Positions 4,640-29,666 of a stretch of 64,000 nucleotides of DNA are shown here, in pieces. This DNA comes from Bryobacteraceae bacterium (GTDB lineage Bacteria > Acidobacteriota > Terriglobia > Bryobacterales > Bryobacteraceae): the NCBI GenBank assembly GCA_026129905.1, contig JAHCHE010000016.1, positions 124,001 to 188,000 on the forward strand. Direction: 5' to 3'. A program made the translations under genes and the position numbers. The notes under the pieces were generated by a model. The model was not told the origin of the DNA, did not search any database, and saw only the letters and a program-made list of their open reading frames with translations. Position 1 is the first letter of the stretch. Each line of letters starts with the position of its first letter.

Positions 4640-5464
4640 CTAGCCGCCCGTCCAGTTGATGACGCCGGCGTAACCTGTTATCAGTACCATAAGACCGAAT
4701 GCGATGCGGTACCAGGCGAACGCCGTGAAATCGTGCGTGGCAATGTAGCGGAGCAGCCAGCGCACGCAAAGGAAGGCGGAAACGAACGCCGCCGCCGACC
4801 CGACGCTGAACATTCCCGCGTCGGCGAGCGACAGATTCGCGCGCTCATGGTAAAGCTGGTAGACGCCTGCGCCAATCAGGGTGGGCACTGCCAGGAAGAA
4901 TGAGAACTCGGTCGCGGCCTTCCTCGAAAGGCCGAAGAACAATCCTCCGATAATGGTGGCCGCCGAGCGCGACGTTCCCGGAAACAGCGCGAAGCATTGC
5001 GCCAAGCCCACCTTCAGCGCGTCGGTCCACTGCATCGCGTCGGCGCGCTCGATGCGGACGCGATGCCGGCGCCGCTCCGCCAAAAGGATCAGCACGCCGC
5101 CGACGATCAGCGCCACCGCCACCGGGATCGGTTTGAACAGGTGCGACTTGATGTATTTAGCGAAGGCAACGCCAAAGATCGCCGCCGGCATGAAGGCGAT
5201 CGCCAGGTTGGCCACAAAGCGGCGGGATTCCGGGTCGGAGAAAAAGCGGGCCGCCACGGTCAGGAACTTCGCGCGGTACTCCCAGATCACGGCGAGGATC
5301 GCTCCCATCTGGATGACGATCTCGAAGACCTGGCCTCTTTCGTCGTTGAAATTCAGCAGGTCGCCCACCAGGATAAGGTGGCCCGTCGAGGAAATCGGCA
5401 GGAACTCGGTCAGACCTTCGACAATCCCGAGCACGAGCGCTTTCAGAAGGAGAGTTAATTCCAC
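4640..5464 (-). CDS. uppP: Undecaprenyl-diphosphatase UppP (BacA family)
   Basis: Integral membrane phosphatase that recycles undecaprenyl pyrophosphate to the monophosphate lipid carrier for peptidoglycan and O-antigen synthesis; it also gives bacitracin tolerance. The 274-residue length is normal. Both signature motifs are present: [15 protein letters not shown] near the N-terminus (catalytic Glu and SSTGH loop) and PGTSRSAAT around residue 170, with about eight hydrophobic segments. The start is GTG at 5464; a TACAAT box ends 9 bases upstream, so the leader must be very short. Together with the cis-prenyltransferase at 50904 (the enzyme that makes the carrier) both ends of carrier metabolism occur in the window, but not as neighbours. 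Confidence 0.96.
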
Positions 5465-5473
5465 AAGACTTGG

Positions 5474-5479
5474 ATTGTA
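5474..5479 (-). promoter_or_regulatory. -10 box of uppP
   Basis: TACAAT on the minus strand, 9 bases before the GTG start of uppP, with no Shine-Dalgarno sequence in between. Near-leaderless arrangement. Confidence 0.4.
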
Positions 5480-5585
5480 CCCGACAGGGGCGATTGTGAA
5501 CGTACCGTCACAATGCGGCGGCGCGAAATCGGTTCTGAGCCGTCAAACGATCGGCTGGTTGGAACGCTTCACTTCTTTCGGGCGC

Positions 5586-5591
5586 TATCAT
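5586..5591 (+). promoter_or_regulatory. -10 box of the FG-GAP gene
   Basis: TATCAT ends 6 bases before the GTG at 5598. There is no ribosome-binding sequence in the gap, consistent with a leaderless message. Confidence 0.4.
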
Positions 5592-5597
5592 GAGCAG

Positions 5598-7832
5598 GTG
5601 CGTGCCGCTCTCCCCATTCTAGCCGCTGCCATTCTCATCGCAGGGCCCGCATCCGCCCCGGGCGTGCTGCCGGAGCCGATCCCGTTCGAACATAGGATCG
5701 TCGACGCGCAACTCGGAGGCGGCGACTGCAAGGGGCTGGCCGACATCGACGGCGACGGCAAGCTGGACGTCATCGCCGGTAGCAGGAAGGAACTCGCCTG
5801 GTATCGGTATCCGGATTGGACTAAGACGGTGATCGCGCCCGCCCGCCAGGAGTTCACCACCGATATGCAAACGGCGAACATGGACGGCGACGGCGATCCG
5901 GACATTGTCGCGCCCGACGGCGAACGCGGCGAGATCGCCTGGTTCGAGAATCCGCGGCCCGGCGGCGATCCGGTCACCGCGCCCTGGAAGAAACACCTGG
6001 TCGGCCATCAAGGCGACTGGGCGCACGACGTGGAAGTCGGCGATTTGGATGGCGACGGTCGGCTCGACATTCTCACCCGGAAGAAAGAGACGTTTCTCTG
6101 GCTTCAGCGGCCGGGCGGGCAGTTCGCGAAGGTGGAGATCCGGGAAGCGCTGCCGGACGGCGAGGGCAGCGCGCTGGCCGATCTCAATGCAGACGGCCGG
6201 CTCGATATTATCCAGAACGGCTACTGGCTGGAGAATCCTGGCAACCCCGGGGGCGAGTGGCGCAAGCGCGCGATCGCCGAGGGCTGGCCGCGACAGATCG
6301 GCGTGACGGCAGCCGATCTGAACGGCGATGGCCGTCTCGACGTGATCCTCGGACCGGCCGAGAGCCACGGCCGCCTGGTTTGGTACGAGGCGCCGGCTGA
6401 TATTCAAACGGGCGCATGGCGGGAACATGCGCTGGATGGCGACGTCGAGTACCTGCACACGTTCCAGGCCGCCGACGTGGACAACAACGGAAGCCTCGAC
6501 ATCGTCACCGCGGAAATGCACCAGTCGGCGCGCAAACGCGTCTCGGTCTACTTCCAGTTCGTTCAGAGCGGCGGCGGCGTCTGGAAGAAGCAGGTGATCG
6601 CCGGGACCGGCTCGCACAACTTGCGCCTGGGCGACATCGATGGCGACGGCGACATCGACATCCTGGGGGCCAACTGGGGCGGACCGCACGCGCCGCTCGA
6701 GGTTTGGATGAACAAGCTGATCGGCCCCTCGGCGATGGCGATCGCTCCTGGTTGGAAATACGTCCTGGTGGACAACAAGCGGGGCAAGTGGGGCGATTTC
6801 GATCCGCCGCAGTGGCTGAAGTACTTCGGACTGGCGGCGGGCAACGTCAGTAGGCGCGGCGCGCTGGATATCGCATCGGGCCGCTACTTCTACCGCAGCC
6901 CCGCTCGCGGTCTGACCGGCGCGTGGCAGAGGGTTGAGTTCCCGCTCAACGTGGACGCCATGCTGATGCTCGACGTTGACGGCGACGGCCGCGACGACGT
7001 AATCGGGGAAGCGCTGCCCAAGGTTTACTGGCTGAAGCCGCTGGACCGGAACGGCGACAAATGGGATGCGCGCGTGATCGGAGAGCTTCCGGCCACCGGC
7101 CACGTCAACGGGCAGGGCTACGCGCTCGGACAGCTTGTGCCGGGAGGCAAGCCCGAGATCGTTCTCGCCGCCGGCGGAAGCGTCTACTATTTCGAGATTC
7201 CTTCGAAACCGGCCGGCGGGAACTGGCCGAAGGTTCAGATTGCCAGGGACACCTCCGAAGAAGGAGTCGCGGCCGGGGACATCGACCGCGACGGCCATGT
7301 GGACGTCGTGGCGTCCAGCGCCGACGGCAAGCGCGTTTCCTGGTTCAAGAGCCCAGGCGACGGCTCGCCCGGCTGGAAAGCGCTCGAGATCGGCCCGGTC
7401 AACCAGTTGGCGGACCGCGTGGCCATGGCGGACTTCAATGCCGACGGGCGGCTGGACGTGGCCGTAGCCGAAGAGTCGTGGCCGGATGCGGGACCCGCGA
7501 GCGTGTTCTGGTTCGAGCAGCCGTCCGATCTCTCTCAACCATGGACGCGCCACACGGTCGTGACGCAGTACACTACCAACGCCATGGACGTCGCGGACAT
7601 GAACGGCGACGGCGCGCCCGACATCGTTACCGGCGAGCACCGGGGCACGCGCAAGGTGGCCGTTTGGGAGAACAGGAACCGGGGCGCAAGCTGGGTGGAG
7701 CGGGTCGTGGACACGGGCAAGGAAAGCCATCTTGGCGCAAGGGCGATCGACCTGGACGGCGACGGCAAACCCGAGATCCTCAGCATCTGCTGGGACACCT
7801 ACCGGAACCTGCACCTGTGGACGCGGAAGTGA
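5598..7832 (+). CDS. Secreted FG-GAP/VCBS-repeat protein
   Basis: The 744-residue product has a signal peptide (MRAALPILAAAILIAGPASA) when started at the GTG at 5598. The frame is open further upstream but that part is antisense to uppP. At least twelve D-x-D/N-x-D/N-G-x-x-D calcium-loop motifs are spread along it, for example DIDGDGKLDV, NMDGDGDPDI, DLNGDGRLDV, DIDRDGHVDV and DMNGDGAPDI, separated by roughly 50-60 residues, with W-[FY]-[EK]-[NS]-P strands between. This predicts one or two seven-bladed integrin-alpha-like propellers. No catalytic domain is visible, so it is probably a surface or secreted binding protein. The binding partner is unknown. Confidence 0.85.
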   Translation: MRAALPILAAAILIAGPASAPGVLPEPIPFEHRIVDAQLGGGDCKGLADIDGDGKLDVIAGSRKELAWYRYPDWTKTVIAPARQEFTTDMQTANMDGDGDPDIVAPDGERGEIAWFENPRPGGDPVTAPWKKHLVGHQGDWAHDVEVGDLDGDGRLDILTRKKETFLWLQRPGGQFAKVEIREALPDGEGSALADLNADGRLDIIQNGYWLENPGNPGGEWRKRAIAEGWPRQIGVTAADLNGDGRLDVILGPAESHGRLVWYEAPADIQTGAWREHALDGDVEYLHTFQAADVDNNGSLDIVTAEMHQSARKRVSVYFQFVQSGGGVWKKQVIAGTGSHNLRLGDIDGDGDIDILGANWGGPHAPLEVWMNKLIGPSAMAIAPGWKYVLVDNKRGKWGDFDPPQWLKYFGLAAGNVSRRGALDIASGRYFYRSPARGLTGAWQRVEFPLNVDAMLMLDVDGDGRDDVIGEALPKVYWLKPLDRNGDKWDARVIGELPATGHVNGQGYALGQLVPGGKPEIVLAAGGSVYYFEIPSKPAGGNWPKVQIARDTSEEGVAAGDIDRDGHVDVVASSADGKRVSWFKSPGDGSPGWKALEIGPVNQLADRVAMADFNADGRLDVAVAEESWPDAGPASVFWFEQPSDLSQPWTRHTVVTQYTTNAMDVADMNGDGAPDIVTGEHRGTRKVAVWENRNRGASWVERVVDTGKESHLGARAIDLDGDGKPEILSICWDTYRNLHLWTRK

Positions 7833-7842
7833 GCCGGGCGGG

Positions 7843-8211
7843 TCAGGAGTTCGGCGAGAGCGCGTAGGACGCCGCGGCGCCGTGCCCTTCTTCTTTTGTC
7901 TCGCGCTCGAGGAAGTAGTTCAGCGCCGTGCGCAGAGCGGCGATGGCCGCCAGTTTGCCGATGTCGTCCCAGCTCGGCGCCACGGCGGTGCGGAGAATGT
8001 CGGCCGCCAGCGCCAGTTCGAGCGATAGGGCGAGCCACCGGCCTAATCCGAGACGAACGGCGGCCTTCGCGCCGTCGCGCGCTCCCCGGCGGAGGAAGAG
8101 CGGAACGGCGCGCCCAAGCGCCTCGACCACCGCGACCGCGATCAGACCCGCCGTGGCGATTTCGATGCCCGCGGCCAGGCTTTCGATCAGGAACCTGGAA
8201 CCCTCTAGCAC
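7843..8211 (-). CDS. DUF1622 family membrane protein
   Basis: A 122-residue protein with three hydrophobic helices: one near residues 8-28, one around 55-75 beginning LGRWLALSLELALAADIL, and one around 85-100 (IGKLAAIAALRTALNYFLERE). This matches the small DUF1622 membrane family, whose function is not known. The chosen start is GTG at 8211, overlapping the stop of the DedA/ATP-grasp gene by 7 bases (GTGCTAG), so translation is probably coupled. It is the last gene of the four-gene operon that begins at 11016. The longer frame upstream is a shadow of the preceding gene. Confidence 0.75.
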   Translation of the reverse strand: MLEGSRFLIESLAAGIEIATAGLIAVAVVEALGRAVPLFLRRGARDGAKAAVRLGLGRWLALSLELALAADILRTAVAPSWDDIGKLAAIAALRTALNYFLERETKEEGHGAAASYALSPNS

Positions 8212-28789: not shown

Positions 28790-28874
28790 TCCTGCAAACC
28801 GGTCGACTCCGCCGCCGCGCGGCTAGCGCCGCCGGGGAGCGAGGTATAGTGGGGGATCGAGAGGGAGGCCTGGG

Positions 28875-29666
28875 ATGACGATTGCATGCCCTATCGATCT
28901 GGACACCGCGGCTGTCCGGCGCGAGATCTCCTCGGTATATGGTCGCGTCGCCGCGGCGCCGGACGGCCAGTTTCACTTCCACCGCGGACCACGCTACGCT
29001 TCCGAGTTCCTCGGGTACGACCCGGCGGAACTTGCTCTTTTGCCGCCTGAATCGACGGCGTCGTTCGCCGGGATCGCCAACCCGCACGCCATCCACCCCA
29101 TCCGGGAAGGCGAAACGGTTCTCGACATCGGCTGCGGCGCCGGGACGGACCTGCTTCTCGCCGCCCGGAAGGCCGGTCCGCGGGGGAAAGCTATCGGCGT
29201 CGACATGACCGAAGCGATGCTTCAACTCGCCCGGCGGTCGGCCGCCTCGGCCGGTCTCATGAATGTCGATCTGCGCCTGGGGGACGCGACGGATATCCCC
29301 GCCGGCGACGCGGAAATCGACGTCGTTATCTCGAATGGCGTGCTAAACCTGGTACCGGAAAAAGAGCGCGCATTCGCGGAAATCCTGCGGGTGCTCAAGC
29401 CGGCAGGACGTCTCCAATTGGGAGATATCGCGCTCGATATGGAGCTCAGCGACGACGTCCGGCGCAACATCGATCTCTGGGCCGGTTGAATCGCCGGCGC
29501 CCTGCCGGAGGCAGGGCTGGTCGCCGCGCTGGCGGAGATGGGATTCGAGGAGGTGCGCGTCACCGCCAGATTCGATTGTTTCCGGGCGACAAGCAAGGAA
29601 AGGACGGCGCGCAAGTACGGCGTACACGGGGTCAACGTCGTCGCGCGCAAACCGGGGAACGGTTAA
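28875..29666 (+). CDS. mduS: SAM-dependent methyltransferase, predicted selenoprotein (in-frame TGA = Sec205)
   Basis: The gene starts at ATG 28875 with GGGAGG 6 bases upstream and a TATAGT -10 at 28845. Residues 84-92 (DIGCGAGTD) are the SAM-binding motif I, with [21 protein letters not shown] and [10 protein letters not shown] as later class I methyltransferase landmarks, as in ArsM-type arsenite methyltransferases. At 29487-29489 a TGA follows DLWAG and the frame continues [10 protein letters not shown] through VVARKP to TAA at 29664-29666, 58 more residues that complete the fold. Cys-containing relatives read AGCIAGA at this place, so the TGA replaces a cysteine. A hairpin fitting a bacterial SECIS follows at once. 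I recall NCBI using the name MduS for such methyltransferase-domain selenoproteins; treat the symbol as tentative. Reading TGA as stop would give a 204-residue truncated protein. Confidence 0.78.
29490..29517 (+). promoter_or_regulatory. Candidate bacterial SECIS element
   Basis: GCCCTGCC (29499-29506) pairs perfectly with GGCAGGGC (29510-29517) around the loop GGA. The loop starts 17 bases after the TGA, within the range usually accepted for bacterial SECIS elements, and the loop begins with G as expected for SelB recognition. The hairpin lies inside the coding sequence. Confidence 0.65.

Follow-up and report, generated by a model that had tools for sequence, protein, structure and literature searches.

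The gene analysed here almost certainly encodes a single selenoprotein of 263 residues, with selenocysteine (Sec) inserted at codon 205, and its product is very probably an S-adenosylmethionine (SAM)-dependent methyltransferase. It lies in the window, i.e. the whole 64,000-nucleotide stretch of Bryobacteraceae bacterium DNA that was analysed (G000:C8:124001-188000), which comes from a genome of 8.57 Mb in 71 contigs. Taken as a whole, the explanation towards which we lean, if modestly, is that of a Sec protein with the fold of the arsenite methyltransferase ArsM, which would act as a selenolate methyltransferase on a soft substrate other than arsenite.

Sequence and translation bear out the reading frame described in an earlier note on this DNA, namely a methyltransferase interrupted by TGA at codon 205 and continuing in the same frame for 58 further codons to TAA (Table 1). 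This is the only TGA in the gene; the Sec motif reads UIAG, which is of the UxxG type, and the methyltransferase domain is closely followed by the C-terminus, at residue 263.

Table 1. Features of the gene, in positions of the window
Feature	Position	Strand	Remarks and basis
Sec-containing class I SAM methyltransferase gene (predicted)	28875..29666	+	ATG at 28875, TAA at 29664-29666; 263 codons plus TAA; sequence, translation, family searches
GGGAGG, ribosome-binding-like stretch	28863..28868	+	6 bases 5' of the ATG; by eye in the sequence
Codon 5, Cys	28887..28889	+	Row counts in the alignment
Codons 34-36, HFH	28974..28982	+	Approximate place of Cys44 in CmArsM, judged solely by the range ends of structure alignments
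Codon 155, Gly	29337..29339	+	Canonical ArsM has an As-binding Cys here (CmArsM Cys174); alignment
TGA codon 205, read as Sec	29487..29489	+	Aligns with CmArsM Cys224
SECIS hairpin	29499..29517	+	8-bp stem; folding and covariation

The TGA is retained in the closest relatives of the gene. A search of 299 genomes of the window's class recovered at least six TGA-bearing loci in five genomes, the window's included, and among the matches listed all six with E-values better than 1e-80, which are the best six, carry the codon. In a search of 396 genomes of the phylum with alignment A1 (E <= 1e-65), matches came from 23 genomes, of which 15 have one TGA-bearing locus each (again including the window's), and 14 of 14 matches better than 1e-85 carry TGA. 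A collection of named genomes gave eight loci, with TGA in the best five; of the others, L073 was retained as a canonical Cys form, whereas L074 and L075, being partial matches to other methyltransferases, were dropped. Codon 205 is the site of the TGA in each of the 25 distinct TGA-bearing loci, the window's among them; these rows were collected for carrying TGA, so that it is the counts among the best matches that constitute the test, and the conservation seen there excludes chance. The searches were mainly made inside the window's own phylum, and apart from L072, which comes from an Acidimicrobiia MAG, the loci belong to named Acidobacteria or to genomes of that phylum; the nearest named relative is Solibacteraceae bacterium SbA4 (L068), at 72% identity. 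Viral contigs searched with A1 returned one weak partial match, which was disregarded.

A tree of 50 rows separates 33 rows of an SNG type (25 Sec, 8 Cys) from 17 of an SNC type with support of 100/97, the two groups being defined by residue 155 and not by residue 67. Site 205 is Cys in 8/8 of the Cys rows of the SNG group and in 17/17 SNC rows; thus, the Cys that the earlier note had expected at this position is found in the more distant homologues, and the close ones have TGA. On the tree Sec needs two changes, L091 and L073 being long branches, and it may have had a single origin.

On comparison of the sequences, the stretch 3' of the TGA is coding and is constrained like the stretch 5' of it. 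Between the window and ten close relatives chosen out of 24, the 50 codons downstream show dN of 0.24-0.35 and dS of 0.66-2.6, much like the values upstream (dN 0.22-0.36, dS 1.2-2.9). The same stretch contains a hairpin, which begins 9 bases 3' of the UGA, spans columns 13-31 of the alignment (column 1 being the T of TGA) and is present in 25/25 TGA loci. In the window it has a GGA apical loop at 29507-29509, a TGA-to-loop spacing of 17 bases and a folding energy of -15.5 kcal/mol. Across the 25 loci 97% of cells are paired, and four of the eight pairs show changes on both sides; with hairpin columns that were chosen after inspection and not preset, none of 500 shuffles equalled the observed value of any of five measures, and sliding the columns gave lower values for all five in every case. 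The mean number of pairs in these loci is 7.76 of 8, whereas 1000 sets recoded with synonymous codons average 5.23 (sd 0.19, maximum 5.76); hence ordinary codon choice does not explain the hairpin. When the window's hairpin is taken by itself, all 8 pairs form in 1.6% of recodings. Thirty-six Cys homologues average 3.17 pairs with a maximum of 5, none coming near the TGA set; 37 Cys loci had been given, of which L099 was missed by a motif that required Cys, and L090 is the only SNG-type locus among those counted, L123-L128 lying outside the set. Folded alone, the 19-base hairpin falls within the published bSECIS constraints, counted as four, in 25 of 25 loci (3-9 nt loop, 4-16 bp stem, 16-37 nt spacing, G in the first two loop positions and MFE <= -7.5, as given in an extract of PMC13188914).

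The genome also possesses the machinery for Sec insertion that the earlier note had named as a check on its reading, with every component over its curated cut-off: tRNA-Sec (78.7 bits; typed by ARAGORN as tRNA-SeC with anticodon tca), selB (348 bits), selA (482 bits) and selD (374 bits; L025, G000:C10). Only matches over cut-off are counted, because weaker ones also appear in control genomes: matches of any strength to tRNA-Sec, selB and selD occur in 14/14 controls and to selA in 4, the corresponding numbers over cut-off being 5, 2, 2 and 1. A second tRNA match above the Rfam cut-off, L002, is a tRNA-Ser, and no sign of a changed genetic code was seen, the tRNA-Trp in L003 having anticodon cca. 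SelA is over cut-off in 19/19 TGA genomes versus 29/41 others, which were hand-picked from the class and phylum searches (29/40 without G580; one-sided Fisher p 0.006, with kinship of the genomes ignored), and G580, which has an SNG form with Cys at 205, gave no SelA match. As SelA is widespread in the phylum, its co-occurrence with the TGA counts as weak evidence. The selD of the window's genome has one in-frame TGA of its own, in AAG*ASKLSP, and in-frame TGA codons are found in many bacterial selD genes. The selA match at G007:C56:5613-6755 likewise includes one in-frame TGA and begins only at model position 72. On the whole, the machinery, the conserved TGA, the covarying SECIS hairpin and the Cys of distant homologues strongly support the Sec reading first claimed in the earlier note.

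Pfam searches matched the protein to class I methyltransferase families. An AlphaFold model, computed from a 10-row alignment with Cys in place of Sec, has a mean pLDDT of 85.5 and a pTM of 0.87, with local pLDDT of about 72 at residues 31-40, 63 at residues 201-210 and under 50 at residues 1-7. Its best solved counterpart is ArsM (Foldseek E 2.2e-18; Z 24.6, rmsd 2.7 over 218 residues), and other class I methyltransferases fit the model well too (Z 18-22, e.g. SpnF with Z 21.7). The predicted structure is thus that of an ArsM-type class I SAM methyltransferase. The description of the protein as arsenite-methyltransferase-like in the earlier note therefore stands for the fold; at the arsenic site, the equivalents of Cys72 and Cys174 are gone.

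CmArsM C72, C174 and C224 align with I67, G155 and U205 of the window protein. Residue 67 is Cys in 0/33 SNG rows versus 17/17 SNC rows, and the same counts hold, by definition of the groups, for residue 155, which in L041 is Ser instead of Gly. Extracts of PMC5552862 define ArsM by at least three of four Cys at CmArsM positions 44, 72, 174 and 224; even with Sec and the N-terminal Cys counted, the window protein has at most two of the four. According to portions of PMC3877260, the number of Cys needed for binding is three for arsenite, two for methylarsenite and one for dimethylarsenite. Near the expected place of Cys44, the first pair in the alignments to 6cx6, 4kw7 and 4rsr consists of model residue 34 and CmArsM residue 42 or 44. 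H34 and F35 are present in 33/33 SNG rows; at residue 36, all Sec rows but one have His (24/25; L091 has Phe), and the eight Cys rows of the group all have Glu or Pro. This link between residues 36 and 205 partly tracks the tree and hence is a hint, not proof, of contact.

Given the above observations, a mechanism may be proposed. The ribosome would read UGA codon 205 as Sec, steered by SelB bound to the hairpin, and the ArsM-like fold would place Sec205 where ArsM has its As-binding Cys224. The selenolate could then bind a soft substrate with a single open valence, such as a dimethylarsenous, organomercury, selenium or tellurium species (with no preference among these), and set it in line with the methyl group of SAM, after which the methylated product would leave. 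The HFH segment may border the same pocket, as residue 36 changes together with the Sec/Cys site. A group in which Sec is the only shared chalcogen ligand would be ill suited to arsenite and could plausibly act on soft species with one open valence. The earlier note had suggested As, Se or another soft element as substrate; this suggestion needs amending, since arsenite itself is unlikely, the two other As-binding cysteines being gone. That the site is a selenolate one, for a soft substrate that is not arsenite, is accordingly a serious possibility that we put forward tentatively, our confidence being lowered by the conservation of Cys5 in the window's subgroup. This residue is Cys in 14/14 rows there and in 0/11 other Sec rows, six of which have gaps at the position, and it may provide a second thiol at the site in that subgroup; Cys87 and Cys235 of the window protein each occur in 9/14 of the subgroup's rows.

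The surroundings of the gene were compared by clustering the neighbourhoods of 26 loci, with ORFs of at least 90 codons only and several contigs ending near the gene. No conserved neighbourhood was found, as no cluster beyond the methyltransferase's own occurs in more than 6 of the 26 loci, and the members of the cluster reaching that number (C1, six loci) overlap the methyltransferase on the opposite strand and are probably shadow ORFs. Ten neighbouring proteins that were scanned, nine in the relatives' loci and the product of the window's upstream gene, showed nothing indicative of a pathway. Several contexts are of separate note. One genome has, next to selB and selA, an additional and more distant Sec form (L122, G006:C197; 4841-5617, 6154-8996). 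A truncated-globin gene, present in 3/32 sequences searched, lies just 3' of the methyltransferase in L110 (7653-8129) and L113 (8318-8818) and about 2 kb 3' of it in L116 (4415-4915); it was recognized by Pfam Bac_globin in L113 and L116, whose proteins have N-terminal stretches that by eye resemble signal peptides, and by a tblastn match in L110. L113 (G303) also contains two forms on opposite strands (5361-6131 and 7258-8031), one with Sec and one with Cys, separated by about 1.1 kb. Cys forms on haloarchaeal plasmids (L124-L128) lie directly 3' of a gene of the OsmC family, on the same strand, in 5/5 archaeal records, six of 66 matching plasmid records having been opened.

An alternative is that Sec has a redox function, the methyltransferase serving as a scaffold for peroxide or disulfide chemistry. 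Selenoproteins of known function are mostly oxidoreductases, according to the consulted extracts of PMC2398784, the OsmC gene next to the haloarchaeal Cys forms would agree with such a role, and in the window's subgroup the resolving thiol could be Cys5. Against this, no Cys besides the Sec site is common to all 25 Sec rows, and four Sec rows have no other Cys at all in the aligned stretch, which may be cut at its N-terminus. Further, A1 shows no variation in the glycine-rich SAM motif (D84-I85-G86-G88-G90). The lack of a shared resolving thiol makes a redox function less likely, with Cys5 keeping the option for the window's subgroup, and we regard this alternative as rather unlikely overall.

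The protein might instead still convert trivalent arsenic (arsenite or methylarsenite) to methylated arsenicals, Sec having taken the place of one Cys and Cys5, retained in the window's subgroup, perhaps serving as second ligand. ArsM is indeed its best match in both fold and sequence, and NCBIfam applies the name 'arsenite methyltransferase' to related selenoproteins. However, the Cys72 and Cys174 sites are not Cys in any of the 33 SNG rows; the C174A form of CmArsM is inactive on arsenite and methylarsenite (PMC3877260, in part); and the score with NF008823, 216.6 bits, is under the curated cut-off of 263. A separate canonical ArsM with Cys at these sites (L032) is encoded elsewhere in the window's genome, and its presence alongside the Sec form fits a division of labour between the two. 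Hence, this alternative too appears improbable. That the TGA is a true stop, marking a pseudogene, a 204-residue protein or a sequencing error, is very improbable: TGA does terminate under table 11 and the 204-residue product would retain the SAM-binding domain, but the codon stands at one position in 25 distinct loci and is followed by constrained coding sequence with a covarying SECIS hairpin.

Returning to the preferred reading of a selenolate methyltransferase, the gene adds to the known selenoproteins a well-supported member whose SECIS covaries across many lineages of one phylum. It also raises the question of which soft-element species a selenolate methyltransferase acts upon, and argues for reopening the assignment of substrates: the absence of two arsenite-binding cysteines suggests that the name 'arsenite methyltransferase' is doubtful for such selenoproteins. 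Our search of the literature, which was limited and does not imply absence from print, found no prior description of the SNG group, and the portion of PMC12013277 consulted makes no mention of a methyltransferase.

Sec-containing ArsM-like proteins as such are already catalogued, and the gene of the window is a stand-alone, single-Sec case among them. A Sec-containing arsenite S-adenosylmethyltransferase appears with an entry of 8 in a table of the 2008 ocean survey (PMC2398784, as excerpted), and the same type reappears with the motif UxxG in a table of a 2026 review, citing Fomenko 2007 (PMC13188914, as excerpted). The window protein resembles these PRK11873/NF008823 Sec forms in its ArsM-like sequence and single Sec in UxxG, and differs from the type in its score below the NF008823 cut-off and in its absence of Cys at 67 and 155, the latter being a property known for the window's side of the comparison. 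With CmArsM, CrArsM and human AS3MT (4fr0, 6cx6, 5evj, 8xt7) it shares the fold, at 25-31% identity and Z of 24.6-19.4; relative to CmArsM, isoleucine, glycine and Sec replace Cys72, Cys174 and Cys224, and the HFH segment lies near Cys44.

Three further families, described by Haft and Tolstoy 2025 as cited in the excerpted review (PMC13188914), combine an ArsM-like or other methyltransferase part with more than one Sec: NF041537 (ArsM/AhpD, three Sec), NF041536 (ArsM/DUF2284, two) and NF047649 (MTase/UXPK-star, two). The window protein matches the methyltransferase part of each, with 211, 207 and 194 bits respectively, far below the cut-offs of 510, 575 and 460. Their models extend over 345, 459 and 283 positions and are named for an extra domain or tail, whereas the window protein is a single domain with one Sec and no additional Sec-bearing domain or tail. 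At a limit of E 1e-70, of which the window protein's own match to NF047649 (E 2.3e-57) falls short, that model found 0/396 genomes and no control match. Placing Cys at 155 or 67 of the window protein lowers its score with all three multi-Sec models by 0.9-3.4 bits and raises that with canonical NF008823 by 6.6 and 6.3 bits. By this indirect scoring probe, the multi-Sec families seem Cys-poor at both positions, and probably share the loss of Cys there with the window protein. More speculatively, and with considerable doubt on our part, the SNG group and the catalogued ArsM-like multi-Sec proteins might form a separate class distinct from arsenite methyltransferases, in which the dithiol or trithiol site for arsenite was lost and one selenolate, tuned by His36, would keep a monovalent soft species, such as a dimethylarsenous, methylmercury, selenide or telluride one, in place for final methylation to a volatile product.
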